A DNA stretch of 64,000 nt, from NCBI GenBank assembly GCA_947179485.1, contig OX359245.1, positions 2,399,001 through 2,463,000 on the forward strand, in the 5' to 3' direction. This document shows, piece after piece, positions 993 to 35,353 of this stretch. The DNA is from Allacma fusca. Taxonomy: Eukaryota; Arthropoda; Collembola; Symphypleona; Sminthuridae. The translations under genes were made by a program, and so were the position numbers. Numbering within the stretch: position 1 is the stretch's first letter; each line of letters begins with the position of its first letter. The notes under the pieces are model-generated. The model ran no database searches, was not told where the DNA came from, and saw only the letters and a program-made list of their open reading frames with translations.

Positions 993-3574
993 TTATGGCC
1001 ACCATCAACGTATCACAATTATTGCAGCGCCACAGAGAAGTTTCCAGCATCAGGGATGTCAACGATTAATAATCACGATTAATGATTAACGATTAATGAT
1101 TACTATTTATTAATCATCAATCGTTAATTTAGTAAGCTTGGATTGTTTGAAATAATCATCAATTGTAATCATCAATTAACCTTTTTGCAAAAATCAATCA
1201 TCAATTGTAATCATCAATTAACCTTTTTCAAAAATCAATCATCAAATGTAATCATCAATTAACCTTTTTCAAAAATCAATCGTCAATTGTAATCATCAAT
1301 TTACCGTTTTCAAAAATCAATTATCAATTGTAATCATCAATTAGCCGTTTTCAAAAATCATTTATCAATTGTAATCATCAATTAGCCGTTTTCAAAAATC
1401 AATTATCAATTGTAATCATCAATTAGCCGTTTTCAAAAATCAATTATCAATTGTAATCATCAATTATCGGGCTGGCGACGTCTCCAAAATTCTAAGTAGT
1501 CTAGGGTTCGAAGAAGTTTTTACTAAGCAGTGTCCGGTGTATCTGGCTGATAATATAAAGGATATAATACACTCTGTTTACGATCAGAGCAGTTTACACA
1601 ACATGAACAGAATCCTGAACTCCTCGTCTCACCCTTTGTACAAGTTAGCTTATTAAAATGATAAATGCAAGCAGTATCTAAATATCCACATTACATTGTT
1701 AATTGCAATCCTCAATTAATTAATTTTCAAAATAATCGTTAATCGTTAATTGCAATCATCAATGAAAATTATTTTTAAAGTAATCGTTAATTGTAATCAT
1801 CAATGAAAATTATTTTCGAAGTAATCGTTAATTGTAATCATCAGTGAAAATTATTTCTAAAGTAATCGTTAATTGTAATCAACACGGAAAATTATTTTTA
1901 AAGTAATCGTTAATTGTAATCATCAGTGAATAATATTTTCAAAGTAATCGTTAATTGTAATCATCAGTGAAAATTATTTCTAAAGTAATCGTTAATTGTA
2001 ATCATCAGTGAAAATTATTTCTAAAGTAATCGTTAATTGTAATCATCAGTGAAAATTATTTCTAAAGTAATCGTTAATTGTAATTATAAATTCATTTTGT
2101 TTTCGAAGTAATCGTTAATCGTTAATTGTAATCACAAAATTGGAAATTGACATCCCTGTCCAGCATAATGAATTCCTTCACCATCACCTCCATTCCAAAC
2201 TTCAACAGAATGACAGTTGCTCCATTGACCAATTGGCAGAGCTGCAAACAACAGAATTTAAGGATTGACCAAGGTTTTAAGGAAAACTTTACGGAGTCGT
2301 TTCGTTTCAGAGCTCAAATAAGAGGTACAAAAACGTTTTCTATTTTTACAGCACGAATGAATTTACTAACTTTTTAAATTTGAATTTGTATGTCGTATTT
2401 TTAGTATTGACTCCTTCAAATAGCGAAATCAAAGTTGGAGGCATTTTGTCTCTAGAAGTCAATGAGGCTTTGAAATTTAGAAGTGTTTTTTTAAACACCA
2501 CTCTCTACCTGATTAAGAGCCATGGGCTCGATCAGTAAATAAATAATATTAACAACCACACATGAATTTTCACCATGTTTTTTGTACATTAAATGAAAAC
2601 AACCTTGAAGTTATCTTAACAAAACTCAACTTTTAATACATATGTGTGTCTTTATTGTAGGAATGGTCAAGAACCCAATGGTTCGTCTGTTCAGTGGTGA
2701 AAACTTGACAGGTGGTTGAATACGAAAGATAGTAGTTCATGTCAATTCGGGTGTTGCAGATTGAACAACAAACAGAATTTTGTATTTTACAGGGAATTCT
2801 GAGGGTTACCATTCCGTAGAAACTAGAACTGATTACAAAGGTTGCTTACATGTTAATGATGAATTAACGGGTGCTAAATCTGCAGAAACGTTTGGAACGT
2901 GCATACGATTATTCAATGAATTCGATTGCAAAGGCATGTCATTGGCAATTTATGGAAGAATTAATAGTTCACATCGAACAAAAGATACAATCTTGGATGA
3001 AGTTTATTCATTGGGGCCTTGCCTTGTGGACGAATTCATCAACGCAACCTTCAGCGACAGTAAGAAACGACAAGTTGTTAACGATCAAAATTCAAGTTCC
3101 TACTTCCCCGACAAAGTTCAGTTTGGAGGTTTCAATTGGGATAACACCAAAATCTTCCTTATTAATGGCTCTAAGTTTATAGCTTACGGTTTAGGAAATC
3201 AAAATCGGATTGAATACATTCGCGCACGAATTGACCAAGTAGGTCCTTCACAAAATACTTTGACCTTCGAAGAAGCACACTTTCCCAAATCGTTTGATAA
3301 AAAAGTAGAAGAAGTTTCATGTTACGCCATTCCTTTAATATTCAAAGGACCTCGAACCGAATCATTCAATATTTTCTTAACCAAACAATCCAAGGTCAAT
3401 GATTGGATCAGAATATTTCCCAAGTTCACCGATGTTAATGAAAGGCTTGACTTCCACGTGGAACTATATTTTACGTACGAAAATGACAACACCACTAGAC
3501 CACAATTTGTTTTTTATCATTTCCAATCCTATAGTGACGAGAGCGTTAACTACGGAAGATTTAATAATATTTAA
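993..3574 (+). pseudogene. Crystallin-like secreted protein, second repeat unit, split by a hAT insertion
   Basis: There are three exons: 993-1050 continued at 2167-2324, then 2661-2711, then 2793-3574. With the transposon and one target copy removed the exon lengths are 216, 51 and 782 nt. These are exactly the lengths of the homologous exons at 38657, 39222 and 39352, and all introns are phase 1. The last exon encodes C-I-R-L-F ... C-K-G-M-S-L-A-I-Y-G, which recalls a beta/gamma-crystallin Greek-key strand pair, followed by G-P-C-L-x-D-E-F and a C-terminus rich in aromatic residues, ending R-F-N-N-I. The only visible lesion is the 1108-bp insertion. Upstream exons, including any signal peptide, lie beyond the window start. 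The fold assignment is tentative. Confidence 0.75.
1051..2158. mobile_element. Non-autonomous hAT-like element in an exon
   Basis: Both ends carry CAGGGATGTCAA in inverted orientation. The 8-bp target duplication TCCAGCAT lies at 1043-1050 and 2159-2166, and the paralogous exon at 38707-38714 has a single copy. The interior is two fields of roughly 41-42-bp tandem units based on 'aatcatcaatt' and 'aatcgttaattgtaatcatca', flanking a unique core near 1450-1660. No transposase is present. The 8-bp duplication and CAGGG ends are typical of hAT elements. Confidence 0.85.
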
Positions 3575-10719: not shown

Positions 10720-10964
10720 TATTCAGATTTTTGGGCTTGGCTTGGCAGGCACTTTGGCCAGAAGATTTTGAAAATTCCCTCACTAATGCTGCTCATGAAA
10801 TGAACACACGAAGCCAGAAAACATGTATTAAATTATTTTCCTTAACTATTCATGACTGCAGCCCTGTTGTCATAAAAAGGATATTAACGTTTTTTTTAAA
10901 TAGAAATATCCGTTAACTGATTCATTAGCGATATAAATATTTAACTGGAATACATGCCGCAATT
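10720..10964. repeat. Left flank of the giant element, paralogous to 43440-44064
   Basis: The sequence matches 43440-44064 by eye, except that the second copy has about 370 bp more between 'gccaga' and 'aaacatg'. It ends at AATT (10961-10964), the target site of the 13.9-kb element. The right half of the same target region resumes at 24860. Confidence 0.75.
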
Positions 10965-11007
10965 GAAGCGGATAATGCAAGAACTGCCTCTGAATAAATT
11001 CATTCTA
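10965..11007. repeat. Left terminal inverted repeat of the giant element
   Basis: It begins GAAGCGGATAATGCAAGAAC right after the AATT target copy and pairs with 24817-24859. Mismatches cluster at positions 7-9 and near the inner end. Confidence 0.75.
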
Positions 11008-11250
11008 TTTACTTTATGCACACAAGCTTATCATTAAAATAAAATCTTCAATAAAAATCAAACCGATGCAAATAAATGGAAAAATTAAACAACTCGAAGG
11101 AACGCACACAGCCACGGTAACGCCTCAAATATTTCATGACTACAAAAAAAACAATATTTCTTATAAACACAACACGACTTAAATATAAATACAACCAACA
11201 TAAACAAATGGATCCACAATCAATCTCTCTAATCAGAAGAAGTTTCATGA

Positions 11251-13197
11251 GCCACACACTGGCGTGCAAGGGCTGTTTGGTAATTTTGAGCAACGCCCTT
11301 GCTAAGCCGTTCCCATACGTGGCTCTAGTCTACAAGAGGTTTCTAGCGCCCGCCGCCCACACACTTGCTTGCAAGAGTTGTTTGGTAATTTTGAGCAAGG
11401 CCCTTTCAAAGCCGTTCCCATAAGTGGCTCTGGTCTACAAAATATTTCTAAAGCCAGCCGCCCACACACTGGCTTGCACGCGCTGTTTGGTAATTTTGAG
11501 CAAAGCCCTTGCAACGCAATTCCGATAAGTGGCTCTATTCTACAAAATATTTCTAAAGCCAGCCGCCCACATACTATCTTGCAAGCGCTGTTTGGTAATT
11601 TTGAGCAAGGCCCTTGCAAAGTCGCTCCCAAAAGTGGCTCTAGTGTACAAAATATTTCTAAAGCCAGCCGCCCACATACTATCTTGCAAGCGCTGTTTGG
11701 TAATTTGGAGCAAGGCCCTTGCAAAGTCGCTCCCAAAAGTGGCTCTAGTGTACAAAATATTTCTAGAGCCAGCCGGCCACACACTGGCTTGCAAGGGCTG
11801 TTTGGTAATTTTGAGCCAGGCCCTTGGAAAGCCGTTCCCATAAGTGGCTCTAGTCTACAACACTCTTCTAAAGCCAGCCGCCCACACACTGGCTTGCAAG
11901 GGCTGTTTGGTAATTTTGAGCAAGGCCATTGCAATGCCGTTCCAATAAGTGGCTCTGGTCTACAAGAGGTCTTAGAGCCAGCCGCCCACTCACTGGCTTG
12001 CAAGGGCTGTTTGGTAATTTTTGAGCAATGCCCTTGCAATGCCGTTCCCATACGTGGCTCTGGTCTACAAGAGGTCTTAGAGCCAGCTTTCCACACACTG
12101 GCTTACAAGGGCTGTTTGGTAATTTTGAGCAAAGCCCTTGCAACGCAATTCCGATAAGTGGCTCTATTCTACAAAATATTTCTAAAGCCAGCCGCCCACA
12201 TACTATCTTGCAAGCGCTGTTTGGTAATTTTGAGCAAGGCCCTTGCAAAGTCGCTCCCAAATGTGGCTCTAGTGTACAAAATATTTCTAGAGCCAGCCGG
12301 CCACATACTATCTTGCAAGGGCTGTTTGGTAATTTTGAGCAAAGCCCTTGCAAAGCCGCTCCCAAAAGTGGCTCTAGTCTACAAAACATTTCTAGAGCCA
12401 GCCGGCCACACACTGGCTTGCAAGGGCTGTTTGGTAATTTTGAGCCAGGCCCTTGGAAAGCCGTTCCCATGAGTGGCTCTAGTCTACAACACTCTTCTAA
12501 AGCCAGCCGCCCACACACTGGCTTGCAAGGGCTGTTTGGTAATTTTGAGCAAGGCCATTGCAATGCCGTTCCCATAAGTGGCTCTGGTCTACAAGAGGTC
12601 TTAGAGCCAGCCGCCCACACACTGGCTTGCAAGGGCTGTTTGGTAATTTTGAGCAAGGCCATTGCAATGCCGTTCCCATAAGTGGCTCTGGTCTACAAGA
12701 GGTCTTAGAGCCAGCCGCCCACTCACTGGCTTGCAAGGGCTGTTTGGTAATTTTGAGCAAGGCCCTTGCAATGCCGTTCCCATAAGTGGCTCTGGTCTAC
12801 AAGAGGTCTTAGAGCCAGCCGCCCACTCACTGGCTTGCAAGGGCTGTTTGGTAATTTTGAGCAAGGCCCTTGCAATGCCGTTCCCATAAGTGGCTCTGGT
12901 CTACAAGAGGTCTTAGAGCCAGCCGCCCACTCACTGGCTTGCAGGGGCTGTTTGGTAATTTTGAGCAAGGCCCTTGCAAAGCCGCTCCCACCAGTGGCTC
13001 TAGTGTACAAAATATTTCTAAAGCCAGCCGGCCACACACTGGCTTGCAAGGGTTGTTTGGTAATTTTGAGCAAGGCCCTTGCAAAGCCGTTCCGATTAGT
13101 CGCTCTATTCTACAAGAGGTTTTTAGAGCCAGCTTTCCACACACTGGCTTACAAGGGCTGTTTGGTAATTTTGAGCAAAGCACTTGCAATTTATTGA
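11251..13197. repeat. 104-bp satellite array, plus orientation (about 18-19 copies)
   Basis: Monomers repeat every 104 bp. Each holds a perfect inverted repeat TTGCAAGGGC ... GCCCTTGCAA around 'tgtttggtaattttgagcaag' (the best copies pair fully), plus GGCTCT ... AGAGCC and GCCAG ... CTGGC pairs. Variant monomers recur in order with an offset of about 629 bp (near 11529 and 12158), which is a six-monomer higher-order unit. Long open frames on both strands arise because 104 is not a multiple of 3 and the monomer has few stops; I do not regard them as genes. Confidence 0.93.
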
Positions 13198-13415
13198 TTT
13201 AAATTTCTAGAGCGACCCCACTGAACACTAATTTCTATGACAATAAAATTGCCAAAAATGCTGCTAGACCTACAATACAAACATAAACAATAAAATAATT
13301 CGCTGTTCAGTAAAGTCAAATTATCTCTATTGTAACACCAGAAACGACAAATCTGACATTCGAAAGCACTCAATTCAAAGAGCCCTACGCGTGATGTACA
13401 CATCATTACGGCTCC

Positions 13416-16400
13416 ATGAATTACGACGAAATCTATCTTGAACCTGCAAGTATGAAGCCGAAAAAACGCGTGCCAAGACCGGAAGAATGGACTCGTAACC
13501 GTGCTAAAAAGGCTCGGACCGCAGGTAAAAACATCTTGTTTCAACGCCACTCGAAAATTAAGAAACGTTCGTTATAAGGTTTATTAGTAGTTACCAAACA
13601 GCCCTCTCAAGCCAGTGTGTATGTGGCTGGCTATTGATATTTATTCTAGATTAGAGCCATTTCCTGATACGTGTTTATTTAAACCCATTGGTGTACATTT
13701 TAGTTTCGCTCACCCTCACCTCGCATACGTCGTATATGCAAGGGAAGACTCAAAATTTCCACAAAGTCCTTGCAAGCCTGTGTGTGAGCGGCTGGATATA
13801 GAAACGTCCTATAAACTGAAACCATGTACAGTCGACTCTCCTTATAGCGTCTCTCCTTATAGAGTCACTCTCCCTATAAAGTCATCCTGGGTTCCTCCCA
13901 AGCTAAATTATATGATAATTTCTACCTTTATAGCGTCACTCGTTATAACGTCAGTTCCTTTATAAAGTCGCCTTTTGGGTAGCCGTAGGGTGAAAAGCGT
14001 ACCCTTGTAACGTCATGTTGACGTTACAACGCGTCAAACCTAGCTAAATAACATGCAGGTACTAAAATTTTGAAACTATTTTTATTCTTCAGTTTCACTA
14101 TAATTCCATTGGCTTATACATAATGTCGCGACGTTATAAAAGACTGGAAGGAACGTGTTACTGTAAATATATGCAAGCGTGGTTAACGGCATTGATTAAG
14201 CCCCATCCACGAAAATCCACATTTCCAAGCTTTTGGATTTATTTTCGCATCCAGTAAAGAACTGACATTCATAGTTTTAACAGAATTTATTACAATTTTC
14301 ACTGTTTGAAAACTTTTGCAAATGTTCTGAGAAGTGTCTTTTTGAGATTCGGAAAACACTTTATTCAATCCTGACCTTTGTTTTTGGAGGTGTTTGTTCC
14401 GTGAGAAATTTCGACAAATATTATAATTTATTTATTAATATTAATAATGTTTGTTCTCATTCTACACAGACATATAGTATGTGCTACTTAAATGAAACGA
14501 GACTCCAATTTAGCTAAAAACGAAAAATTTGCAATTAAACCGTTATTTATATGATGTGCCTCTATAACGTCGCTCTCTTATAACGTCACTTTTTGGGAGA
14601 TTTATTGATGTCGTTATAAAGAGAGTCGACTGTAGGGGAACAATTTTGCAAGGAACTTGCTCAAAATTACAAAAGAGCCCTTGCAAGCCAGTATATGAGC
14701 AGCTGGCTCTAGAAACTTCTTGTAGATTAGAGTCATTTAAGGAATCGGCTTTGAAAGGGACTTGATCAAAATTACCAAGCAGCCCTTGCAAGGCAGTGTG
14801 TGCCCAGTTTGAGCTATTTGGGGTATCGGGATACACCCGGGAATAAGGTTTGGGCTCGGGTTCGATTTGGGTGTCTATTGATGTCCCCAAATACTTTGGG
14901 ACCAGGTTCAGGAACATTCTCAGCAGACTCAGGATTTCGGGACCCGGACTTTGTTTGTGAACGGGTTAAATCTTGATGAAGGAATTTGTGTTCTCGTCGG
15001 GTACCGAGAACATCTTAGTTCCCCTACCCATTACACGCTTCACGTTCCCAGGGACTAAGTATCAATCTAGCGGAGAAAAAATGAAAACTATGAATGGCGT
15101 ACCTCTTTAAAGTGCCGAGATAATAATTTCTTGTTGCAACTTACGTTGTTTCACATATTGTCAGTTCGGATCGCGTAGTAGTGGCTTCCGCCTACTCTGA
15201 CTTGCAGGATGAAAGTTATGGCAAAACTTATAGTCGGAATCATTAAAGCAGTCTTCCTGCAGCTTTTTCGGCAACGCTTACCAAATTTGTATTTTGACGA
15301 AATGTTTTAATAGTGTCTAAATCTATTGTTGCGTGGTACGCATGTATGAGTATTGCTAAATTGACAAAAATGTGAAGAAAAATATTTGTTTACACTAACT
15401 ACATTGGTCCCGGGAACAAGTCCGGGTTCAAGGGATTCGGAATCGGGAGCAAAGTTTATCTGATTTCGAGTTCGGGATCGAGTTTGAGATCAACGATTCA
15501 AGCATATTTAATATCTGGGTTTTTGTGCACCCGATACCAGTATTTCGGGATCGGGTTCGGAAATGGGATCAAACCTATATATATATAAACTCAAATAATA
15601 CTGTTCCTGCATTCGGCAGTATATAAAATGAAAACTATATGTACAAAACACGGTCAATAATTATTTTATTTTGCATTTTAATAGCAGCTCTGAAAACAAT
15701 TCTTTGAATTACAGGGAATGAATACCTTAATGAAGAGGGTGACGTGGTAGTTCAAGCTACAAGGATGAGAGATGTGGATTGTCTGTGTGGTTGTTCCCAG
15801 AAACTCACAGATGAAGAGAAAGAATACGTTTATGAAAGCTTTCGGTTAAAACAATCTCATGAAATCCAAAACGAATATTTGCGAGGCTGCACAATTGTTT
15901 CCGGAACAAGAACTGTTCGAGGAAAAGTCGAACGTGTTTTTGTACACATGTTACGCTTTGATCTAAAGACCATACGTGTTTGCCAAAAATACTTCTTGGC
16001 AGTGCATGGGATTAAGCGAAGCCGCCTTCGTACAAAAGTAATCAGATAATGTTCAGAAGTCTAAAATTGAGATGCCACTCATTATTCAATTTTATTTATT
16101 CCACATATATAACTAAATTATAACGCAGCAACCGAGAGGAATTTCATATTACTGCTAGTATTCCTCGGAATCGACTGTGGAAGCTGCAATAAACGAATGC
16201 TAAGTAGTATTATGTCAAGACTACGTTGAATTCCCAAGAGAGTTGCTTAACATTACTCCACAGGCCTTGTATGCCAGGGCTTGGAAGTATGGATTTACAA
16301 CACACAGAAAGTGATGGTTTTAGAAGTCCCTTGCAAGCCAGTGCGTGGATGCCTGGCTTTAGAAACCTCTTGTAGACAAGAGCCACTTACGGGAACGGCT

Positions 16401-19400
16401 TTGCAAGGGCCTTGCTCAAAATTACCAAACAGTCCTTGCAAGCCAGTGTGTGGGCGGCTCGCTTTAGAAAAATTTTGTAGACTAGAGCCAAGTATGGAAA
16501 CGGCTTTGCAAGGGCCTTGCTCAAAATTACCAAACAGCCCTTGCAAGCCAGTGTGTGGGCGGCTGGCTTTAGAAATGTTTTGTAGACTAGAGCCAAGTAT
16601 GGGAACGGCTTTGCAAGGGCCTTGCTCAAAATTACCAAACAGCCCTTGCAAGCCAGTGTGTGTGCGGCTGGCTCTAGAAACCTCTTGTAGACTAGAGCCA
16701 TTTATGGGAACGGCTTTGCAAGGGCCTTGCTCAAAATTACCAAACAGCCCTTGCAAGCCAGTGTGTGGGCGGCTGGCTTTAGAAAAATTTTGTAGACTAG
16801 AGCCAAGTATGGGAACGGCTTTGCAAGGGCCTTGCTCAAAATTACCAAACAGCCCTTGCAAGCCAGTGTGTGTGCGGCTGGCTCTAGAAACCTCTTGTAG
16901 ACTAGAGCCATTTATGGGAACGGCTTTGCAAGGGCCTTGCTCAAAATTACCAAGCAGCCCCATCTAGTCAGTGTGTGTGCGGCTGGCTTTAGAACAATTT
17001 TGTAGACCAGAGCCACTTATGGGAACGGCTTTGCAAGGGCCTTGCTCAAAATTACCAAGCAGCCCCATCTAGTCAGTGTGTGGGCGGCTGACTCTAAAAA
17101 TATTTTTTAGATTAGAGCCATTTAGGGGAACAGCTTTGCAAGGGCCTTGCTGAAAATTACCAAGGAACCCTCGGAAGCGAGTCTGTGGGCGGCTTGCTGT
17201 GTAGTTATTATACACTGGAGGCGTTTAACAAAACGACTGTACAAGTTCCATACTCAAAAATTAAGAGCAGTCTTGGGATTCCGGTTTGTGATTGGCTGAA
17301 TCTAGAAAGCTATTCTATATTAGTGAGCTTTCACAGCATGACTTTGCCAGTAACTTGATCTATATAACTAAAGCTGCCAGATTCCTGCTATTAGGAAGGC
17401 AGTTTACTGAAATAACATGAGATCTACTAAGTCTACTATTTGACTTCAAGCTTCTTAACTATACTTTTTTATATTTTCCTAAAATAATAATAAATTGTAA
17501 AATTAATCTGTGCTTAGAAATGTGAGCACGATGAAACCACACTTATCCGAAAATTTCGTACCTGTAAATTGTCGAATCACTATCGTCTGTCTATGCAAAC
17601 GTAGAACTTTCAGTTGAACTCAAAATATGTTCATTGTTTTATTTCTGCAGCATATCTACAATAATATGAAGTAGTAGAAATCATAAAATGAAAATGAAAT
17701 GGATATCCATGTATTCTATCCATTAGCACTGGATAGTTGTTGCTTTTGTTTAAATGTTAGCATTTCGTGTGCTATTATTTGCCTTGATAGAACTAAAATA
17801 GGGAGAGACTGTACTTGCAACGATGAATTACAAAAAAATTACCAGAAGTAATTTCGCATTACAGAGTCTACGGCAGTCATAGTTGAGCATTTCATTTCGC
17901 TTTCTTGTAAAATTCTTTCGACATTCGTTTCTTATAGATTGTCTTGCTGGAAATGTTTTTGTCAATGCAAACAGGGTTCTGTGCATTCTTTGATTAACTT
18001 AGGCTGTTTGCGTATTCACTATTATCAACAAATTGTGAACAGGAGATTTCACAGATTTCCTTATAAGTTCTAGAAGCAAAGACAGCTGTAGTAATTAATC
18101 AATTTAAAGTTATTCTGGAATTTACCTATAAATGATTTTATGATATGCTACTTAGTGATACAAATGTGCTGAAACAAATTTATATCTTAAGTAGTATTTT
18201 ATCTCATAGTATTTTTATCTCATATAAATGAGTTACTAATATTAAAATCCGGCAGAAGTACTTGCGAATAAGCAATATACCGTAGTTATTTTCGGAGGAC
18301 GGTTGTTTATTTGTTTAAATTGTAATAATTGCGTAAGTATTAAATTTTGTCAAAAAATAAGATACATTTTGAATATGTGGATCTGGAAGCTTTATATATA
18401 ACCAAACTCCCCTAGCTAGCTTGCATAGCCGACCTGCACGCAATAGGTATTCTAGATTAAATCCGTTTCAGGGAATGAATTCGCAAGTGCCTTCCTTAAA
18501 ATTACCAAACAGCCTTAGCAAACCAGTGTGTGGGCGGCTGGATTATTATTATTTAAGATTATTGAAGTTTCAGAGAATGGCTTTGCCAGGTCCTTCACTA
18601 AGAGCACCAATCACTCTTTACAAGCTAGTGTGTATGAGACTTGCTGTTGGAAACTATTCTAATTTACTTTGGTTACATGTAATGGTTTACATGCAAATGA
18701 GCAAGCAGCTCTTGCTAGCCAATGTGTGGACTTTTTCACTATTTTTTCTGAACTGAAACCCGCTTGTATCATGTTTTCTGATTGTAAATTAATATTTTAA
18801 ATTTTGGTCCATGGTTATTTAGCACACATACTCGACAAAAGCTGTATTAAAATCATTCTGAGATGATGGTTGTTATTAACGATTAACTAAATTTAAACCA
18901 TTTTAGATTTATTACAGTAGTACATTTTTTGTTCTTAGGTTTTGAGGCAGGAGGAATGTATTGAAGATAGAAGGGGGAAACATCCTAATCACAATGTAGT
19001 GACGCCTGATGGGGCACGCGACTCTATGCGCATATTTTTGTCTTCTCTTAATGCACGTGCCTCACACTACTCACTAACAAGCAATCCCAATAGATTGTAC
19101 CTTGACGCTGATTTATCAATCACGAGTTTGCACAAACAGTTTTTGCAGCTATTTCCTGATTTCAATGCTGAAAACGCGAAGCTGAATGTTTTCCGAAAAA
19201 TTTTCAACACTGAGTTCAATCTGAAATTTGGTGATCCCAGAACCGATAAGTGCTCCACATGCGAATTGTTGGTAACTAAAATAAAAACTATACAGTTGAA
19301 TGATCCAGGCAACATCAATGCCATCGAGGAGCTTACAACGGAGCACGTGTTCCACTTGGAGAACTCCAAGATGTTCTATGAAGATTACCACAATGTTTCT

Positions 19401-20431
19401 GACCTTCCTGACGACCATTTTGCCTTGTGTTTTGATTACCAAAAGAACACACCGCTTCCCATGACAAATGTTAATAAAGAGTACTACATAAGTCAATTAT
19501 GGATTTGCAATCTGGGCATAAAGAACATGAAGACAGGAGTGACTAAAATGTTTCTTTATAGCGAGCATTTCGCTCAAAAAGGTATATATATATATATATA
19601 TAGCTGTAATAACATTTGAAACTTGCTGGCATTAATGATGATATTATAATATAATATCTATGAAACAAAATTTGCTTTTCAGGGGCAAATGAGGTTGTAA
19701 CCTGCCTAACATGGTATATTCAGAATGTGGTTCCACAAGACGTTACTACTTTACATGTGTTTTGTGACAACACTTTCGGACAAAACAAGAATAGATTTGT
19801 TTTGGCGGCTTTGCAAAACTTAGCTAATAATCGCTTTGATAAGGTTTACCTTAAATTTCCTATTCCTGGGCATTCTAGAATGCCGATTGATGCTGACTTT
19901 GGACGCATTGCACTGAGCGCAAAGAAATATGAGTCTGTGCTGTATCCCAGTGATGTTCGGAGGATAATAGAGTTGGCACAAATTCAAAACCCATTTGAAA
20001 TTGTTTATGTTAACAATAATCTCACTGATGATCTGTGTAATGACGGTACTACTGTATTGGATGTGAAAGACTTTAAAACTTCACTAGATAGTTTGTTTCA
20101 GCCGTCACGCCGTGCAAATTTAAATTTGCTAACAGTACGGGAAGTCGAATTCACTACACATCTAAAGCCAGTCATAAATTACACTGGCAGGTTTCCAGAA
20201 GCCAAGAGGGAAATTGATTTGTTCTTTGAAAATGTTACATCTGAAGTATTGAAAAACAAAATTATGAGTGCTCCTTCAGCCTATGATGATTTCTTGCCTA
20301 TACCAATAGCAAAGTTGAAGAATATAGAAGAACTGACAAAGTACGTTGTTCAAAAGCCTGGTCTTGAATTCTACAAAACTATTTATGCAGTTGTTGGAGA
20401 CCAGAGAAAATACCTTCATGTGGAGTGGTAA
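13416..20431 (+). CDS. DUF7869-like transposase, four exons, about 607 aa
   Basis: Exons are 13416-13524, 15715-16037, 18939-19581 and 19683-20431, all with GT/AG borders and compatible phases; the sum is 1824 nt, or 608 codons with the stop. Exon 1 gives a basic stretch with P-x-x-W-x-R-N-R-A-K-K followed across the junction by G-N-E-Y. Exon 2 has a C-x-C-x-x-C cluster. Exon 3 has I-F-N-T-E-F-N-L and a C-x-x-C knuckle, then F-D-Y-Q. Exon 4 has C-D-N-x-F-G-Q-N-K-N and G-H-S-R-M-P-I-D-A-D-F-G. These are hallmarks, as I remember them, of a widespread animal family (DUF7869); the three aspartates form a plausible DDE/D catalytic triad. A second ATG lies at 13452. Introns 1 and 2 carry the satellite and a Tigger-like MITE. 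A (TA)n tract follows the exon 3 donor. Confidence 0.78.
13600..13826. repeat. Degenerate 104-bp satellite pieces, minus orientation
   Basis: Pieces such as 'ccttgcaagcctgtgtgtgagcggctggat' near 13770 and 'cagccctctcaagccagtgtgt' near 13600 are diverged monomers. The last monomer is cut at 13828 by the Tigger-like element and resumes at 14633. Confidence 0.65.
13829..14632. mobile_element. pogo/Tigger-like MITE nested in a satellite monomer
   Basis: The ends CAGTCGACTCTC and GAGAGTCGACTG are inverted repeats flanked by TA on both sides (13827-13828 and 14633-14634). The interior has many 'ttataacgtcac' motifs in both orientations. Target and ends fit the Tc1/mariner pogo-Tigger group. Its flanks read as one interrupted 104-bp monomer. 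A truncated relative is at 565-767. Confidence 0.78.
14633..14805. repeat. 104-bp satellite pieces, minus orientation
   Basis: About one and a half diverged monomers ('ccttgcaagccagtatatgagcagctggctctagaaac') follow the Tigger-like element. Confidence 0.75.
14815..15560. repeat. Motif-rich repeat (GGGATCGGGTTCGG)
   Basis: Both margins are rich in 'tcgggttcgg', 'tatcggg' and their complements, around a unique AT-rich middle. It lies in intron 1 of the transposase. Ends and target duplication were not resolved. Confidence 0.45.
16328..17195. repeat. 104-bp satellite array, minus orientation, in intron 2
   Basis: About eight monomers of the 11251-13197 satellite lie in the opposite orientation. 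Monomers with 'ccaagtatggg' and 'ccatttatggg' tend to alternate, suggesting a two-monomer higher-order unit. The array sits wholly inside intron 2 of the transposase (16038-18938). Open frames on both strands are by-products of the repeat. Confidence 0.92.
18410..18735. repeat. Degenerate 104-bp satellite, minus orientation
   Basis: About three strongly diverged monomers ('accaaacagccttagcaaaccagtgtgtgggcggctgg' and similar) lie near the 3' end of intron 2. Divergence is far higher than in the main arrays, so this is an older piece. Confidence 0.75.
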
Positions 20432-21834
20432 TTAGTGTAAAAAATTTGTTTTGAAGTTTTTAATGGCTTAGCATTGAAAATGTTATTATGTATTTGGTGT
20501 TAATACGTTTCGATTAACTCGACTTCTGTAAAGCCTTTTGTTTATGGAAAATGTCTGTAAAATTAATTTCATCGTTACAATATTATTTTATATATTGGTC
20601 GTGTCATTAATAGTCTTGAAATTTCATTAATATCTAAATATTTACCAGAATGACGCTATACAAATTTACTATTCTTTAAAATGCTCTTTGGAGACAAGCT
20701 AATGTTCTGCACCATGTAGTATAAATGATAGCTATGAAGTGTAAGCGGCTGGAAAATTCTGGTTAATGTACATTGGTCGTGTGAGCTTCAGATTAACTCA
20801 ATCATTGTTTTGACGTTATTCATAAATATTTTTCATGAAGGATCTGAAGAGCGCATATACAGGTGATTTGTTTTGTTACGAACTATTAAAGCATCTTTAA
20901 ATAGTGAAAACGGTTGAAAATATTTTTTGCAAAAGTATGTTACATTGCTAATGAATGTCATGATTACGTGTGTTTGAATAAAGTCGTAAAAGATTCATTA
21001 CATTTTTATTATATCCTGTTAAATGCACTGAATAGTTAAAAGTTCTTACTTATTGTTTTATAAGTGTGTTTACTCAAGTAGTTATTTGTTACACCTGTTC
21101 TGAATCTAACAAGAAGTTCAAGAGCAATTCAGCATTTCCTGTAAGTAAAATGTTTGCTGATATGAAACTTGATGACCCATACCAAACTCATGTAATCTTG
21201 TAAATCGCTATTACATGAGTATAACAAGCAAAATTAACGACGAAATGTATTGATAAAAATAACTTTAGTGCTGAGTACATTCCCCAGATGTGTGCAACAC
21301 TAATGTGCAGAGGTCAAATGTATAATAGCTAACCTCCTAATTATGAAAAATAGTCAATTAGATTATTGTTTACTTTCATTTTCCAACACAATCAAGTGCC
21401 GAAATCTTGCACAATTGCTTGCTGTGGTAGCCCAAAATTTTCTCGAATCTGTGCAAGGGAAGCAGTTGCACTCATATTGTTGTAGTACGTTTGTTATTAA
21501 GAATGAGGCAGCAATCAGAAAATCTAGAAAATAATCTAGTAGATCTGGTGGTTTACTCCTTGTGATCCCGTTCATTGTCTTGGCTATTTTCACTCGTGCC
21601 CGCCATCCCACAATCTCGTTGATCACTCCATTTATAATCTTCCTTTCTATAAGCTTCCCATTGGTCCCGCGTTTTATTCACACTGTTGCCAGCAGTTCCA
21701 AAACTATTTAGAAATTTTAAGGTAAAGATTATTATTCCTGTGATGCTAAGTTTATCCTACTTTCAGTGTGTCTTCATAATATTGTCAGCTGTAATAACTG
21801 CGGACGAGATTTCTAGCATTGTTTATTCATTTAC
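20432..21834. other. 3' flank of the transposase gene, no further gene seen
   Basis: It is AT-rich with short open frames only. I recognise no domain and no paralogue within the window. Confidence 0.45.
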
Positions 21835-22075
21835 AAAAAAATACTTGAATATTCAAGTTCAAGTATACAAGCTCACGTTCAAGTCACGTCCAACTTGAAT
21901 GTCAATATATTATCAAGTTCAAGTTCTATAAAATGAACTTGAGAATCGTGCACTTGAATACTCAAGTTGCTTGAGAGACTTGAATAATACATTGCGAATA
22001 CATTGTTTAGACATTTTTTCAAACTCAAGTCAAGTTGTTTAAAATAACTTGACTTGATCACAGCTCTAAGCACAA
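21835..22075. repeat. Motif-rich repeat (CAAGTT / AACTTG)
   Basis: It is dense in 'caagttcaag' and 'aacttgagaa' in both orientations, like a motif-array MITE. Ends were not resolved. Confidence 0.45.
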
Positions 22076-22289
22076 CTAATGTTATACACAGCACTATCTA
22101 CCGAGTGATTCTTTGTTGAAAGTTTGAATACATTTCATGCATACACCCATAAAATATTTGATTCTCCCAGTTTACCACAAATTTAGTTTCGAATTTTCTC
22201 ATCCCCTCAAAACACAATCAAATATTGACGTACTATTGCAAATGTAGAACTATTATACATTCTACTATTCCTACAATCTATTTTGTGAT

Positions 22290-23090
22290 TATAATTAAGG
22301 CAACTCAATGCAATAGTACATGCATTGAGTTGTCCCGAACTCGGACTCGAAACATTTGAGTCCGGAAATTATTTTGTACTCAAAACCGAGACCATTAAAA
22401 AATGTATACCCTAAACCGACTCTAACTCGAACGGAAACCAGACACAAAATGTACGTATTTTTTGTGAAAGTAAAATAATGCTGCAATCCCTGGACCGGTG
22501 TTTAATTTCATTATAATTCGGTACCATGGGCCAAACTTCTATTTTTTCTTCAATAAACTTGTTAGTTGCCGACTTTAACTACGATATTAAAAGCAGTAAC
22601 GTCCATATTGTATCTTCTTGTGTAGCACACATTCGGAGTTAAAATGTTGGAGCCAAACGAAAAAGCACGCAAGATAGATAGGAACCCCATTGCCAGGAAT
22701 GACCTAGAAATCACGCGGCATCCTTGCTACATTAGGGTACTTAGATTCCTGTGCTAACAAAATTCAGGTATGAGTAGTGTTATGTGATGTACTTGCAGTG
22801 TAAGGAGACTGTCTATTGGTTGTTCTGATGTTTTGCACGAAAATTGCATATTTTTTAGTAAATCGGGCTAGATAGGTTTGACGATTGTTCAGGTAACACA
22901 AATCAGTTTATTCCAGCACAAGTTTTTACTTTCGAGTTTTGGTACGGACTGGTAGATTTTTCAAACTCGACCCGAATTTTTCGGGTCGAAAACGTGATAC
23001 CCGAAACCGGCTCGAAAGTAAACGGTAAAAAAGATTAGATTCGAACTCGACTCGAACCCGAAACCCCGAACAGAAACACTAATATAAACT
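22290..23090. repeat. Motif-rich repeat (ACTCGAACCCG) with a 12-bp hairpin at its left side
   Basis: Both sides are rich in 'aactcgactcgaacccga' type motifs with a unique middle. A perfect 12-bp inverted repeat, CAACTCAATGCA, with an 8-nt loop lies at 22301-22332. Target duplication was not found. Confidence 0.45.
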
Positions 23091-24284
23091 GCTATACAAA
23101 TATAGTCGAAAGGCCGAAGAGACAAAATGGCAGCGACAACATGAATCCAATTTGTCCAATGAAATAGTGACGCGAAAATTTAAAAAAACTTTTGATCTCA
23201 CTTTGTTTTTCCTTGATGGAATCATCTGAAACCCTCAAGCATCACGACTAATCGTCTTATGTCAGTTTTTAAACAATACTTCCGAAAATCACACACACAT
23301 TATATCAATGGGATAGAAAATCTAAGAAAATCCAGTTTTCAAAAGTCTTTCGAAAAACTAATAAGTTTTGTGTTTCTCTTTTTGTTTTAAGTTTTGCGCG
23401 CTGAAAATATGTAAATTGCCCTTCAAGTTAAAGTCATGTCAGCCGAAATTTTAAAATCTTAGTCATCATCATTAAAATCATCATTTTTTTGGCCCACATG
23501 GCGCCAAGAAGGAATCATACGAGACCTGAACCCACAGGACTAATTATTGTGTTTTGCCGAAGTTTTTGAATAAATTTAAACGATTTAAATCGATTAAATG
23601 GTGCTCAAAATTTTGAAAAAATAGATTTTGGAGCGTCCTATGACTCGATGCCAGCTTTTGACTGAGATGAGGAGCGCTGATTTCTCATTCAAAGCTATTT
23701 ACTTGCTCTACTAGCTAAAATAACGCCAATCATAATTTCGAAATCCCCAATTATTGGATCGAAATTTCAGCATTATTTTCCGTCAAAAAGTAATCATCTG
23801 AAAATTCGCCGTCAGACCTCAAGACAAATGGCCTTACGATAAAGTTCCTGAATAAATTTTAAAAAATACTAATTTATGTTCATTAGTGTCCAAAATTAAA
23901 AAATAATTTTTTGGGGGCTAATATGAAAATTTGACCATACATATCGGCTAGGATGTCGCTTATCGGTCAGTGATATCTCATGAAAAATATTAGTCGTAAT
24001 TTGGACAGGGAACTTAAACTTATCGATTTTTTTGGAACATTTCAGAATTTGTGAAAACAAAAACTGACTCAGGCAGGGGTACTTGAAGCAGCAGACTTGA
24101 ACATAACCCCCCTCAATTCCGGCTTAATAATTATTTCATTTTAATCTGTTAGTAAACCCCAATTACTTGCATGACTACGAATCAATTCCTAATCGTAAAC
24201 CGATGCTAGATAAATTATTTGATCAATCTTACCCACCAAATTCCCTGCTGTTCCCTGCAAAACTTTCTCTCATTTTAGGCGTAA
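23091..24284. other. Stretch inside the giant element with no gene seen
   Basis: AT-rich sequence with no long open frame, no recognised motif and no splice-supported exon. Confidence 0.45.
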
Positions 24285-24545
24285 ACAGCTTTGCAAGGGC
24301 CTTGCTCAAAATTACCAAACAGCCCTTGCAATCCAGTGTGTGGAAGACTGGCTATTGAAACCTCTTGTAGACTAAAGAAACTTATGGGAACGGCGTTTCA
24401 AGGGCCTTGTTCAAAATTACCAAACAGCCCTTGCAAGCCAGTGTGTGGGCGCTGGCTCTAGAAACGCATTGTAAAATTGAGCCTTTGAAAGGAACGGCTT
24501 TGCAAGGGTGTTTCTCAAAATAACCAAACAGCCTGTGAGTACCAG
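24285..24545. repeat. 104-bp satellite, minus orientation, right side of the giant element
   Basis: About two and a half monomers lie in inverted orientation relative to the left array, so satellite flanks the element in mirror image. This is reminiscent of Foldback/Galileo-type termini. Confidence 0.85.
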
Positions 24546-24816
24546 TTCTTATGAATCAGGATCTAAATAGTATGTCTAGATTTTAAGTGCGACTGCTGGT
24601 ACTGCAAGAAGTTGTTGGTTGTTTTGGACAGCTCGTATATGTTAAATTTTGTTCCATCTTGTTATATTTTATAATAGTATTTTAAGATATTATCTGCGGT
24701 ACTCGTTACCTTGGATGTTTACTTGTATTTTCGTTGTCTTTACATTTTTAGTAGTATCATTTTTATTTTTCTAATTTAATTTTGAAATTCATTAGTAAGC
24801 ATATTGGCAGAAGGAA

Positions 24817-24859
24817 TAGAATATATTTCTTCAGAGGCATTTCTTGCATTCATCGCTTC
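24817..24859. repeat. Right terminal inverted repeat of the giant element
   Basis: It ends in CATCGCTTC immediately before AATT (24860-24863) and pairs with 10965-11007. Confidence 0.75.
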
Positions 24860-25208
24860 AATTATGAATGCAGAAATTATCAACTTATAATTGCACTCAA
24901 ACACTAGTAATTCTTAGCAGAAAGAGGCTTTTAATTTTCAATGATAACTCTCAAGGGTTGTTTTGAAAATCAATTTAAATCAATAAAGCTTAAAATGTCA
25001 TAAAGAACTTTCTACATGGAAGCAATTTGTGGCCCAAAATTTCCTGAACTCTAATAGATTCACAATTTACCGCGTATCATTGTCCACTTTCCCTTAATTC
25101 AAATATGGATCGGAAAAATACATTTTGGACCATTCCACTCAAGTTTACGCTGAATGTTTTTTTATTTCTCCATCAGTTTTCCAATATTTAAGGGTAAGTT
25201 TTCGTTTA

Positions 25209-27990: not shown

Positions 27991-28284
27991 AATGATGCTG
28001 ATCTATCAAGCTATTTTGGAAGTCAGTACGAGAACTTGCCTCTCAGTGTATGAATTACTTGAGACGAATTGGTTCGACAGTCACGCGTACTACACTCCAA
28101 TTGAAAACTACTGCGCTTCTGCGGTTGGCTGTGTAGGTATGCGACAAGATATACATTTGGGCATTGGCTGCTTCTCTTTTGGTCATGTGACTCCAACACA
28201 AGAGACGCTTCACGCCCTTGGGTTTTACCACGAGCAGTGTAGACAGGACCGAGACGAATACATTTTGCTTATGATTATGCTTAT

Positions 28285-29370
28285 TAGGGATGCCAAATAC
28301 GATAATGCCGAGACGATATTCTCGGAAATATCGCCATTTTACCACCGATATAACTTGCGATAAAAATCGCCAAATATGTCGAGAATATCGGTGTCTCGCA
28401 AATATCAATTTCCATACATTGGGCCTGTTTCTGATGTGCCATTGGTCGCGCAGTTAAATGAGAATAATACCAAGGGAATCTAAATGGCATACAAGCAATA
28501 CTGGCTTAAGCAGCGCTGCCGTACAAGCTCCTTCACTAGAAACATTCTTTGTATGCAAATTTCATGTATATAGTATGCACAACTGCACATTTGTATTACC
28601 GCCATCAACAATAATTGTGCGTGCAGTCGTCCTCATTTCATTTCTCTCCGACGCATTTTCGGTTTAATAATGTATTTTAATGAAACAACAATCGTTTATA
28701 ATAGTTAGTGAAGGCGAGCGGAATCGATGGAGGGGGTAAAAGAAAGAATTAAAAAACTGATTAGATCTCATGAACAAAGTTTATAATACGAAGGATTACA
28801 GAGGACCTCGCTCAGGTTTGGGAATATTTTCTGGTAAGAAAAGATTGATTTAAGGCTTTGTGTAAACTGTGTGAAACAGATCTAGCACTTATATCAACTA
28901 CGGAAAATAATATTTCCGGTATGAAATACCAACTCAAAGCAGTGCGTAGTGTCAAATTAGGTTAAGAGTCACCGAATTCGGTTGTTCAAGATTTGTACGT
29001 GTGTCAGAAGATGCCGACTTGGATGACAATGTTAGTTTCGTCACCGCACAATCTGACTAGGAGGATTGCTCGGATTTGTTCTTTGACGCAGAGGATTAAT
29101 TTGTTACTTTATATGAAAGTAATCTTTCATAAGCTTGCAGTAAGCTTCCTTATAACCTGGAGTTTTCGTAAATTTATTGCTGACTGTATTGTTCTGATAT
29201 AAATTTAGTTGAATTACTTTTAAATCATTGCGTTATAAATTTCCCTAGCTTATCTAGTTTTAATAAAGGTAAGGTCCGATATATCGCCGATAGGCGATAT
29301 ATCGTAAAATGGGATTTACCCGAGAACGATAATTGCGATATGAGATGAATGGCAATAACTGGCATCCCTA
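28285..29370. mobile_element. Non-autonomous hAT-like element, CGATAT-motif family
   Basis: Ends are TAGGGATGCCA and its inverse. The 8-bp duplication ATGCTTAT lies at 28277-28284 and 29371-29378. Both margins are rich in 'cgatattctcgg' and 'cgatatatcgccgata'. The interior has short frames only. Confidence 0.87.
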
Positions 29371-30755: not shown

Positions 30756-33700
30756 TCAAGAGTGAGGACCATCACATGTCAGAGGAATAGTAATAAATGT
30801 TCCAATTACACTGGTGTAAGGGAGAGCAGCACATTTTTGTTTCAGTTCAGTAATTGGAATTACAAATTTTGGAGAATAGGTGAAACAATTAAAAATACCA
30901 AGCTGGTTACTATCTATCGGGCAGTCTTCGACAGGAAATACAACAAATTTTACACATTCAATTCTTCCATTTTCAATATCGCTCAATGATGTTACTCTAA
31001 TAATAAGAAAATCCTTTGTTAGGAAACAATTATCGCTTTCAAAAATATAAATTAACATTCCGTTGTATACATATTTTTGCTTCTTAGAAGCTTTAACAAA
31101 TCCATGTTTTTTAACCGCTATTTTATCCGTTAAAATTGAACTCTCACTAATCCTATTAGCTACTTGTTGCAAATAATTTTTATTAGATTTAACCATTCTT
31201 TTTATACATTGCATGTAATTTTCAAATGCAAATGCACTGAAACTATCTAGGTTCGAAATATTTGTTGCATCTGCAGCTAAATGAATCAAACTATGAACAT
31301 TATAAAAACAAATTCTGTTCCATAAAGAATTTTAGCGTCACTAAACAATCGTCGTAACAAATTATTGCAACATTATTTTGAACTATCTCGTGAGCTTTAC
31401 TACCAACTAGCAGAAAACTTCCTGCATGCAAAAGTAGAAAATGGTGATACAAATAATCGGGCAAAATATTTTTTAATACCACGATACCAGAATACAGCAA
31501 AAATGAACGAAACTCAGAAGCCTTGAATCGGTCTAATTCCGTCAATGATTTTGGCTTTCGTGCAAATTCGGATGGTACGAATGTATAGAGTTTCTTTAAG
31601 TTAATGGATATTGATTCAATGTCTCTGCTTCTCAAACGTACTTTTAATGACCCTTTGGTCCATGCTAGAAGCATCTTCCGCATAACTCCCAAGCAGACTA
31701 GATGCATATAGTCGAGTGGAAACTGAGATATCATTCATACAAAGGACGTTAGTGGAGATAATCCGGTGTGATGTTCAATCTGAGAACGCGTGTAAAATCT
31801 TTCATCAGTTCGGAGTCTGCTATCCATTTCTGGGTATATTATTCTATTTTGAAACCAATCGCCCTCTTGTTCACATTTTTCACAACCAAAATAGGCATTG
31901 TATGGTTTACAACACTTCAAAAAAACTACGGGCTGGGGCATCAGCAGTAAAATGACCTGGGTTGGCCAATTGAAAATGCCATGGCATTTTGGGCATTTAG
32001 CCTGCCGAAAATGCCCGGGCATTTTCGGCATTTTCAATTCATGGCATTTTCGGCATCTATGGCATTTTCGGCATTTTTGGCATAATCCGCGTAGGGCAGG
32101 CATTTTGGGCATATTCAATCATTTCTTGGGATACTTCTGCCTGGACTTTTCTATTATTTTTTCAGCGAGGTAAATTTCGATACATTTTTTGTTTGAATCA
32201 ATGCAAATATCTTTATAAATGCATACCCGAAATTTCATTATTGTAGCGTGTCGCGTGTCTTGATTCACTATACTAACATTTGTATTATCATTATTTTAAA
32301 TCTCATTCTATTTTCTTAATTTTCACTTGAGATTTAATCAGGATACCTCGAATCAATGACAATATTCAGCTTCATTGGTCAGACATCGGTGAAAATAAAA
32401 TGTTGTGTAATTACTTTCATAACAAGCAGTTGGATTATACCATGAAGTGGCGTGCTCGCATGCAAGTTTAAAAGTCCAAGTGGAGGTTAAACGGGAATTA
32501 TCCAAATTTATTACCAAAACGTGTATTGCTCTGGACATCGATGTGACCAAAGAAATCGATTTAAGCTCACAAGAATCAGCGTTGGTGAAATAATTCTCAA
32601 CAAAGCCAGAACCGAGTTCATCAAAACAAATTATACATGATTATCATGTGTATAAAATATCACTGCATTCCCTGAATTGGAAAAAAATATTTTAGATGAC
32701 GAAAATTATAGTTTTACTTTTCACGAGTTCGAAGCTGAGTTGATGTTGAGGATATTGTTGAATTAGATTAACAATACACAGGGGAAGAAACGATGTAGGA
32801 ATACTAATAGTTTAAAAACTGCGAAGCTTTTGATTAATTAATTCATAAAAATGTATATTTTTAAATGAAGTTTGACATTTAAAACAATCTGGTCTCTAAA
32901 AAAGAACGGCAAATAATGATTGTTTACAAAAAAAATCGAAAATGCCCAAAATGCCTGCCGAAAATGCCCAAAATGCCTGGCATTTTGAAACTAGGGCATT
33001 TTCGGCATTTTCAGGGCATTTTTGGCATTTTCAGGGCATTTTCAAGCGGGCAGGCATAAAACCGAGGGCATTTTTATTTGGCCAACCCTGAAAATGACTA
33101 ATCTGAAATGTGTATTTGATACCGTTCACAGAAATTCCGTTTGAGATAAGCTCACAGCATTCGAAAACAAATTTTTCTAAATATTGATTTAAATCCTGTG
33201 GTTTTGATTTTCCGGGAAATAACCCTATAATAAATGGCTTTTGACATACCGTTTGATTTACCATTCCAAGCAATGGCCATTGTTGCTGGTTACTACTTTT
33301 ACAAATATTAACTCCGTCGCAGCCTACGGTTAGGGAAACCAAATGGATACAATTATGATTTTTTAAGTATGGTATGTTAACGTGGACAATACCTGTAGAA
33401 ATCTTGGATTTAACGTTAACCTCAATGCCAAAATAGCAAAATTCCCCGCGTCCTAATTTTTCTATTTCAATGTGCCTGGGAGTTTTTCACAGAGTCCTGG
33501 TGCACATTGGCAAGACGTTATTTAAGTAAGGGTTCAGGATTTTCAACAATTCATCCGATAAACTGTGAGCAATACTGTTTCTACATACCCACACTGCTAA
33601 CTTGGTATTTAGATCTACAAGGGAATTTTCAAGGACATCATCACTAGATGAACTACGACTATTTTCATGGTCTGATTCCGTACAGCTTTCGGAAACATGA

Positions 33701-33888
33701 GGTTGAATTACATTAATATTTTCTAAACTAACATCATTAGGCTCTAATGCTTCAACAGGTATACTGGGTACGTGGTTGTAATTATTAACAAAGTTATAAA
33801 TGCCTTCTCCACTAAAATTTCTTATGGTGCTTAAATGATTATTAACTAATAGCGTTTCCCTACGACGCTTAGTTCTTAAAGAGGACAT
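30756..33888 (-). pseudogene. Tnp2/EnSpm-like transposase, frameshifted and split by a hAT
   Basis: Read from 33888 leftward, the pieces are a basic N-terminus (S-S-L-R-T-K-R-R-R), then G-C-D-G-V-N-I-C-K-S-S-N, K-P-F-I-I-G-L-F-P-G-K-S-K-P, then beyond the hAT D-A-P-A-R-S-F and Y-F-G-C-E-K-C, then D-Y-M-H-L-V-C-L-G-V, and N-V-H-S-L-I-H-L-A. I recall this order from a widespread animal transposase family related to plant Tnp2 (CACTA/EnSpm). Frame breaks occur near 33480, in the A7 run at 31919-31925 and in the A5 run at 31304-31308. Removing the hAT and one target copy restores the frame at S-H-F-T-A-D. It starts 16 nt after the DUF4806-like gene. Element ends were not found. It is defective as it stands. 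Confidence 0.72.
31957..33090. mobile_element. Non-autonomous hAT-like element, GGCATTTTCGGCATTTT-motif family, nested
   Basis: Ends are CTGGGTTGGCCAA and the inverse of CAGGGTTGGCCAA. The 8-bp duplication AAAATGAC lies at 31949-31956 and 33091-33098, inside a transposase codon run. The margins are arrays of 'ggcattttcggcatttt' and the middle is unique AT-rich DNA. A partial relative lies at 47960-48055. Confidence 0.88.
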
Positions 33889-33904
33889 AACAAGTGACGT
33901 AAAA

Positions 33905-35353
33905 TCAATTTTTCTCAGAATCTTGATGTTTGTCTAAAGACGTCTTGTACCGATCAGCCCGACCTCCGTGACGATCGCCTGCACCAAGGAGCCATTTTTG
34001 AATCAGTTTTTCAACTTCGTGCTCACTCGGACAAGACGATTCGCTGCTCTTCCTAACAGCAGCTGCTTTCTAAAACAAAAAGTTGCTAAAACGCATACAA
34101 TGTATCAAGCGGTTACATAAGCAAAGACAATTATCATTAGACAATTATGCGACAAAACACGTACGTTCCTATAATACATTCCACAATCCCGTGGTCTTTA
34201 AATTTTACTTTGTCCCTGGTTCCAGTAAAGTTGCAATCTCTAGCCAGATCTCCTCCAATAGTTCGTCCAAATATTCGTGTAACGAAGTTGGCTGTGTCTA
34301 CGCCACCGATGCCTTTCAAATGCCGTATCTATATCAAGCAATGATTTCAAGTGAAAATATAGTCTACGCAAGCAATGCTAACTAATTATTTAAACAATAA
34401 TTATTGCATTTAAAAATGCCGTACGTGATACTTATTAGTAAGTAATTGGCTCAAAAGCAGTACTTACAAATTTTAGTCTACTTTCCTGTGCTTGCAGCCA
34501 ATCATCTAAACGCTTAAATTCATCAGCATCTTTAACGGGCAACTTGATTGGTATGTCACCTTCCTTTAGAAGGTCAGCGTGGTTATTACCAGACACGACT
34601 CGAATAGTCTCGGCCACGTCCGAAGAAATCCTTATGAGATGAGTCAGCACAAGTTCTTGAAATCCTTTAAATACCTCAAAATTTAGTTAAGTACAATGCG
34701 CACCAATTTAATATATTGAATGTATTGTATTTATAGTTACAAACTTCTAGATTCAGCAGCAAATTGATCAAAGCGTGCAACAAGATTATCGATAGTAGAT
34801 TCAGAAAGACCAGTTTGAGCATTAAAAAGGTAAGGTTGATACATATGCATCGGATTTGGAATTTCAGCATAAGTTGTCTCCACTTCGTTCTCAATGGGTA
34901 TAATCAATGGCTGACCATCACCAATTTTATATTTATGAAACACATTGTTTCAATTTATGTCTGCATGGCGTGACTGATTTTTATCGAAAAACGTTAAAAA
35001 CTAAAAGGCCATAATATAGGAAGTAAAAATGCGGTTACCGGAGGATTGTGTGAAGCCTTCTGGAGGTTCTAACTCGTAAAGTGGTTCCAAATGTTGAAAT
35101 TCCTGAATAGGCTGCGAATTGTGAGCAATGTCTTCCCTTGAATTGACTAAAGCCCCATTTGAGAACCATGAAGCAGCTGAATGAGATAACTTAGAACCCG
35201 CAGTTCCTTGATTAACTAGACCTCTATAGTTGACTTCCTTTCGTTTCCGTAACCGCCGAACATGAGTTGTTTCTTCGCCCTCAGCTTCAGTTAGTTCAAC
35301 TTCGCTGTTTTCAATAGCCTTGTCTAAACCAGAGCTGGCTTGTGTGTATGTAT
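33905..35353 (-). CDS. DUF4806-like protein, partial at the N-terminus
   Basis: Likely exons on the minus strand are 35353-35039, about 34943-34743, 34664-34468, 34328-34172 and 34070-33905. Exon 1 is acidic then basic (R-R-L-R-K-R-K). The third has P-I-K-L-P-V-K-D-A-D-E-F-K-R-L-D-D-W-L, the fourth G-G-V-D-T-A-N-F-V-T-R-I-F with C-N-F-T-G, and the last E-V-E-K-L-I-Q-K-W-L-L then a G-G-R-A-D-R tail. That order matches the DUF4806 region as I remember it. The second exon's acceptor and the fourth exon's donor are uncertain, and the N-terminal exon (seen in the 47459-49537 paralogue) was not found. No internal stop was seen. Its link to a transposase suggests an accessory transposon protein. Confidence 0.6.

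Follow-up and report, generated by a model that had tools for sequence, protein, structure and literature searches.

The locus studied here raises two questions: whether a 13.9-kb block of Allacma fusca DNA is a single DNA transposon, and whether the DUF7869-like protein encoded in it is the transposase. The block lies in a stretch of 64,000 nucleotides (contig OX359245.1, positions 2,399,001 to 2,463,000), hereafter the window. Analysis of the termini of the block indicated that the ends proposed in the first-pass annotation, 10965 and 24859, are exact. The left terminal inverted repeat (TIR), GAAGCGGATAATGCAAGAACTGCCTC..., located at 10965-11009 on the + strand, resembles the ends of other DUF7869 elements and aligned with the right TIR, located at 24815-24859 on the - strand, with 40 of 46 columns identical and two 1-base gaps. 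The TIRs are flanked by AATT on both sides, at 10961-10964 and 24860-24863. The duplication is 4 bp long, unlike the 8-bp duplication of hAT elements. The paralogous empty site that had been reported with these ends was also recovered, in a duplicated segment at 43918-44409 that carries a single AATT. Alignment of the joined flanks, less one AATT, with this segment revealed 90.9% identity over 492 columns with 2 gap positions, reaching 147 bases to the left and 343 bases to the right of the junction, and a 346-base alignment crosses the junction without a gap. To the left of the alignment the similarity ends and resumes about 400 bp away, at 43445-43522. A search of Rfam at the gathering threshold gave no match.

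The block harbors tandem arrays and a nested repeat (14433-14634, similar to 563-769), and it could therefore be argued, as the first-pass annotation had itself considered, that it is a product of unrelated insertions whose TIRs and duplication match by chance. In a chance test, 225,483 AATT...AATT pairs of the window at a spacing of 1-20 kb were taken, and those with an 8-mer in common near the ends were scored. A score of at least 15 was obtained for 197 pairs, 195 of which have both ends inside the 105-bp arrays; among the non-array pairs the 10965/24859 pair scored 31.2 and the sole other pair 18.0. The empty site contradicts a chance origin, as does the right end that the window element has in common with another copy, and other families have similar ends (see below), so that the probability of this explanation is negligible. 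The segment 10965-24859 is confirmed as a DNA transposon inserted at AATT.

The element carries a gene of four exons on the + strand, and the earlier reading of 608 codons including the stop proved correct: the phases close, the three introns are all GT-AG and the deduced protein has 607 aa. Exon 1 (13416-13524) ends at a GT donor, exon 2 (15715-16037) encodes a Cys motif, C-x-C...C, and exon 3 (18939-19581) encodes a D-x-C-x-x-C motif and the first aspartate, in CFDYQKN. Exon 4 (19683-20431) encodes the second aspartate, in FCDNTFGQNKN, the third, in GHSRMPIDADFG, and the stop. The protein scored 45.1 bits against Pfam DUF7869 (PF25273; cut-off 26, E=1.1e-11), in agreement with the family assignment made at first pass, and the match covers the domain in part, from profile position 22 to 122 of 192; the ORF holding exon 4 gave E=1.7e-11 with the same profile. 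No piggyBac and no integrase-core domain was matched in Pfam. A PDB sequence search with the exon-4 protein only gave nothing meaningful (best E=0.12), NCBIfam gave only two matches for six proteins, both far below cut-off, and PHROGs gave none for two proteins.

The three aspartates (C-F-D-Y, C-D-N and I-D-A-D-F-G), already singled out as candidate catalytic residues, are conserved in all aligned relatives whose sequence covers the region. The first is present in all ten bacterial rows with letters at that position and the second and third in all 11 bacterial rows, and all three are found in the own-genome rows, namely the window protein, D1, E1, E2 and H1. Also aligned between the bacteria and A. 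fusca are a lysine that precedes the second block and the cysteine motifs, the latter in rows of full length.

The A. fusca genome (392.7 Mb, 91 contigs) contains at least 91 exon-level matches to the window protein (E<=0.001). Twenty stretches, representing 15 further DUF7869 loci and picked mostly as apparent near-identical copy pairs, were fetched, and both ends were resolved in seven of the 15. The ends of families C and D were determined by comparison of copy with copy, with no target assumed, and those of the window element and family B also from empty sites. AATT was found on both sides of all eight independent insertions resolved at both ends, the ends of family H coming solely from a search restricted to equal AWWT flanks. 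These eight comprise the seven resolved loci, with two host-borne copies of family B taken as one, the window element and a further copy of family B. The resolved elements are 4.9-13.9 kb long. A DUF7869 gene, TIRs related to those of the window element and an AATT at either end thus occur together in other families of the genome.

The two copies of family C (6.05 kb) are 98.25% identical, have different flanks and carry AATT at all four ends. Those of family D (4.93 kb) are 99.96% identical, likewise with AATT at all four ends, and both encode the same 602-aa protein in a single ORF; judged from these sequences, family D is a candidate recently active element. Family B is an 8157-bp element, its ends taken from the search restricted to equal AWWT flanks, and is nested in a 9.35-kb host element that has 8-bp duplications and, as we take it, hAT-like ends; two copies of the host element, in inverted orientation, are 99.98% identical. 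A further copy of family B, at C8:31520033-31527967, has 100-base ends identical to those of B and unrelated flanks, and family B accordingly represents two independent insertions. The scoring of empty sites for this family took in 40 of 59 candidates. Of the relatives of the host element, 36 were uninterrupted and matched the joined flanks with one AATT, the best with 100% identity over 218 bp, and the two interrupted copies gave half-matches only. Family H has one copy with AATT on both sides. The TIRs of families D and H bear only a loose resemblance to those of A, B and C.

The copy nearest to the window element, A1 (C1:78.53-78.55 Mb), is homologous to it up to 24864, one base beyond the AATT, and the two agree at 47 of 50 positions over AATT and the right TIR; the left end of A1 was not found. 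Identity between A1 and the window element is 83-89% in the non-array blocks. The first-pass description of the element as recent and possibly autonomous is therefore supported only in part: the gene has an open frame, but with A1 as the nearest relative the identity is 83-89%, and close copies occur in families B, C and D instead. The 13.9-kb copy was mobile in the past, and recent movement, as the sequences of these copies indicate, holds for relatives of the window element and not for the window copy.

Besides A1, the loci lacking a pair of resolved ends belong to families E (three loci), F (two) and G (two), eight of the 15 in all. In families E, F and G no pair of TIR and duplication was accepted, and the borders of the block shared by E1 and E2 showed neither TIR nor AATT. 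The earlier claim that the element names the TIR and target of its enzyme family is consequently borne out by the related TIRs and by AATT in all eight resolved insertions, but it is not proved for the DUF7869 family as a whole, since E, F and G are without recognisable ends. These three families also lend some weight to the view that the DUF7869 gene is a passenger, and that a different, AATT-preferring transposase mobilises the ends.

A search of the own genome with a TIR pattern bears on this view. The pattern was built from ten of the ends that it matched (two of the window element, four of family C and four of the host-borne copies of B). Preceded by AATT it gave 18 matches and the reversed control none; with the flank nearly free (the four flanking bases open, the first one not C) it gave 25 matches and the reversed control 10. 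The flanks of the 25 matches were AATT in 18 and seven other 4-mers, one each, in the rest. Fifteen matches lie outside the design set, eight of them with AATT, and six of these eight new ends have a DUF7869 match no more than 8 kb away, a territory amounting to 0.17% of the genome. Taking all AATT-TIR ends together, 16 of 18 have a DUF7869 match at this distance or less and two are far from any. Two of the seven non-AATT matches are also near DUF7869, and their flanks, AAAA and AATA, may be decayed AATT. The proximity of the ends to DUF7869 matches argues against a passenger gene, as do the conserved aspartates.

A motif pattern applied to prokaryote genomes from 84,980 species matched at 24 loci, and 11 of these code for proteins related to the window protein. 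The other 13, with no relative above the phmmer inclusion threshold, were dropped, although L014 among them is perhaps a decayed relative. Pfam assigned DUF7869 to all ten bacterial proteins submitted (L020 was left out), with E values from 2.9e-9 to 4.1e-25. Residues 27-438 of the window protein were matched with E=9e-26 by a profile built from the 11 bacterial relatives, the best of 999 shuffles giving 0.1. Eight of the 11 relatives are enclosed by long TIRs in IS-like elements of 2.0-3.5 kb, five of which start with GGGG at both ends; no convincing TIR pair was found for L004, L020 and L023, and L004, from a sponge-symbiont assembly, may be host DNA. In the elements of L003, L010, L017 and L019, 2.06-2.12 kb with the TIRs included, the DUF7869 ORF takes up more than 90% of the length. 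Such elements speak further against the passenger gene, which is now very improbable, and we consider it very likely that the segment 10965-24859 is a cut-and-paste DNA transposon with the 607-aa DUF7869 protein as its DDD transposase.

In the mechanism that we propose, the DUF7869 protein would bind the TIRs of about 45 bp, and perhaps the subterminal arrays as well, through its Cys-rich N-terminal modules and the parts next to them. The predicted three-aspartate active site would then free the element and insert it at AATT with a 4-bp stagger, by which the AATT would be duplicated.

The DUF7869 domain was found in one of 297 genomes of the L010 phylum, the L010 seed itself, and in none of 14 control genomes. 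Viral contigs, scanned twice with proteins and once by alignment and searched with two motif patterns, yielded no DUF7869 relatives, and phages and plasmids searched with the L010 protein yielded no match. A tree of 12 rows, from which L004, L015, L020, E2 and D2 were left out, separated the bacterial set from four own-genome rows with full support, with long branches and an arbitrary root.

The bacterial elements have a target similar to that of the A. fusca families. Their borders were placed manually, in most cases at the G-run, and with this placement AWWT adjoins 15 of the 16 bacterial ends. The outer 4-mers are identical in three of the eight pairs (AAAT/AAAT in L003, ATTT/ATTT in L015 and AATT/AATT in L019) and unequal in five (AAAT/ATTT in L010, ATAT/ATGT in L017, ATAT/ATTT in L021 and L024, and ATAT/AAAT in L007). 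A further end in the L017 genome, the third, is flanked by ATTT. AAAT is read outward at both ends of L010, and it could equally be an outer part of the TIR in this element. In piggyBac transposition the flanking bases are carried along as single-stranded tails. A similar process, in which the AWWT bases travel with DUF7869 elements as single-stranded tails in one lineage from bacteria to animals, would explain why the outer A and T are kept and the middle two bases differ in five of eight bacterial elements, and also the constant AATT in the own genome; we offer it as a speculation and regard it as doubtful. Alternatively, copies may have recombined or mutated, or a border may have been misplaced, and any of these could give unequal bacterial ends.

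Among the known DNA transposons the window element appears to work like Sola2, of the Sola superfamily, both reportedly described by Bao et al. in 2009. The first-pass annotation had been reminded of Sola by the 4-bp target, and the agreement was found to extend to AWWT and to the architecture. According to PMC3627910 (Bao and Jurka 2013), Sola2 duplications are 4 bp long, AT-rich and of the form AWWT, e.g. ATAT, AAAT and ATTT. PMC10741241 describes Sola elements as having a DDD transposase and 4-bp duplications and occurring in bacteria and metazoans, with TIRs of 11-1124 bp and lengths mostly of 2-9 kb, some above 15 kb. The DUF7869 elements resemble those so described in their three aspartates, which point to a DDD-type transposase, in their 4-bp AT-rich AWWT duplication, in their modest TIRs (about 45 bp in the own genome), in their length of several kb (4.9-13.9 kb in the own genome) and in their occurrence in bacteria and metazoans. 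Since target, architecture and the other testable features agree, the window element is probably a member of the Sola2 group, the Sola2 transposases being compared by description only.

The comparison by description, together with the fact that no match named Sola came from Pfam or NCBIfam, also leaves some room for the DUF7869 elements to form a superfamily apart from Sola, with the 4-bp AWWT target a coincidence. In view of the features that fit the descriptions in PMC3627910 and PMC10741241, from the DDD transposase to the distribution over bacteria and metazoans, we regard a separate superfamily as unlikely and prefer the placement in Sola2. No report of a Sola2 element with AATT was found in the literature searched. 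The slime-mould Sola2 elements described in PMC3627910 differ in having TIRs of 12-21 bp and a varied AWWT, as opposed to TIRs of about 45 bp and AATT at every resolved insertion in the own genome.

The piggyBac elements share with the window element a fixed, AT-only 4-bp target that is duplicated on insertion, but their target is TTAA, while here it is AATT and the protein has no match to the piggyBac domain. Ginger elements also make 4-bp duplications. They are DNA transposons as well (PMC2836005), but the window protein has no integrase-core match in Pfam.

Pfam gives no function for DUF7869, and the present results go beyond the entry by tying this domain of unknown function to transposon ends, target site, architecture and mobility. 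Neither DUF7869 nor PF25273 was mentioned in the literature searched, which was without most subscription papers and Repbase, and the link to transposons is therefore perhaps new in print. DUF7869 proteins annotated as host genes could be re-examined as transposon genes. The small bacterial elements would suit biochemistry, and family D, with its 4.9-kb length, 99.96% identical copies and single-ORF gene for 602 aa, suits testing of the enzyme.

Analysis of the internal sequences revealed tandem arrays, which are specific to each family and are a further difference from the slime-mould Sola2 elements as described in PMC3627910. The left subterminal array of the window element, identified by TRF, has 18.5 copies of a 105-bp unit (11252-13189). 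The unit recurs in inverted orientation in an internal array within intron 2 (16328-17198) and, inverted relative to the left array, in a right subterminal array of 2.4 copies (24284-24533). In all five resolved families the left TIR is followed by a tandem array before the first DUF7869 match is reached, with units of 105 bp in the window element, 91 bp in C, 70 bp in B, 359 bp in D and about 78-81 bp in H. The subterminal arrays may serve in the binding of the transposase or in regulation. The repeat that resembles 563-769 is nested inside the element at 14433-14634.

Analysis of the Allacma fusca loci L048-L051 (G000:C10:2085001-2119000) revealed that the DUF7869 transposon of family B is nested inside a 9.35-kb host element, which we take to be hAT-like judging by its ends. 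The host occurs as two inverted copies that are 99.98% identical. As each of these copies is flanked by its own separate 8-bp duplication, the nested transposon seems, on this sequence arrangement, to have moved as cargo.

The genome-wide search for the TIR pattern with AATT yielded two ends, at G000:C1:7821001 and C8:58661497, without a DUF7869 match within 8 kb. The sequence beyond the C1 end is family B-like, and this end may belong to a non-autonomous or deleted copy.

Comparison of the A. fusca loci of the DUF7869 families E, F and G (L058-L060 and L061-L064) yielded no recognisable pair of TIRs and target duplications, and family G sits inside a long inverted repeat. These loci may be copies of greater age, elements of an unusual kind, or genes that have been domesticated.

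The bacterial loci L003, L007, L010, L015, L017, L019, L021 and L024 are compact IS-like elements encoding DUF7869 proteins. With borders set by hand, the flanking 4-mers were unequal in five of the eight, the outer A and T being common while the middle differed.

Elsewhere in the window, a run of ORFs interspersed with GGCATTTTC minisatellites (30756-33933, minus strand) may be the remains of a further transposon gene that has decayed; a Pfam scan of four of these ORFs gave no match. The ORFs at 2765-3574, 37405-38076, 39318-40133 and 59178-59768 appear to belong to one duplicated protein family, and the three scanned from this set gave no Pfam match. The two duplicated segments contain similar ORFs, at 27992-28363 and 45171-45617, and the Pfam scan of the latter matched Astacin (E=6.4e-23).
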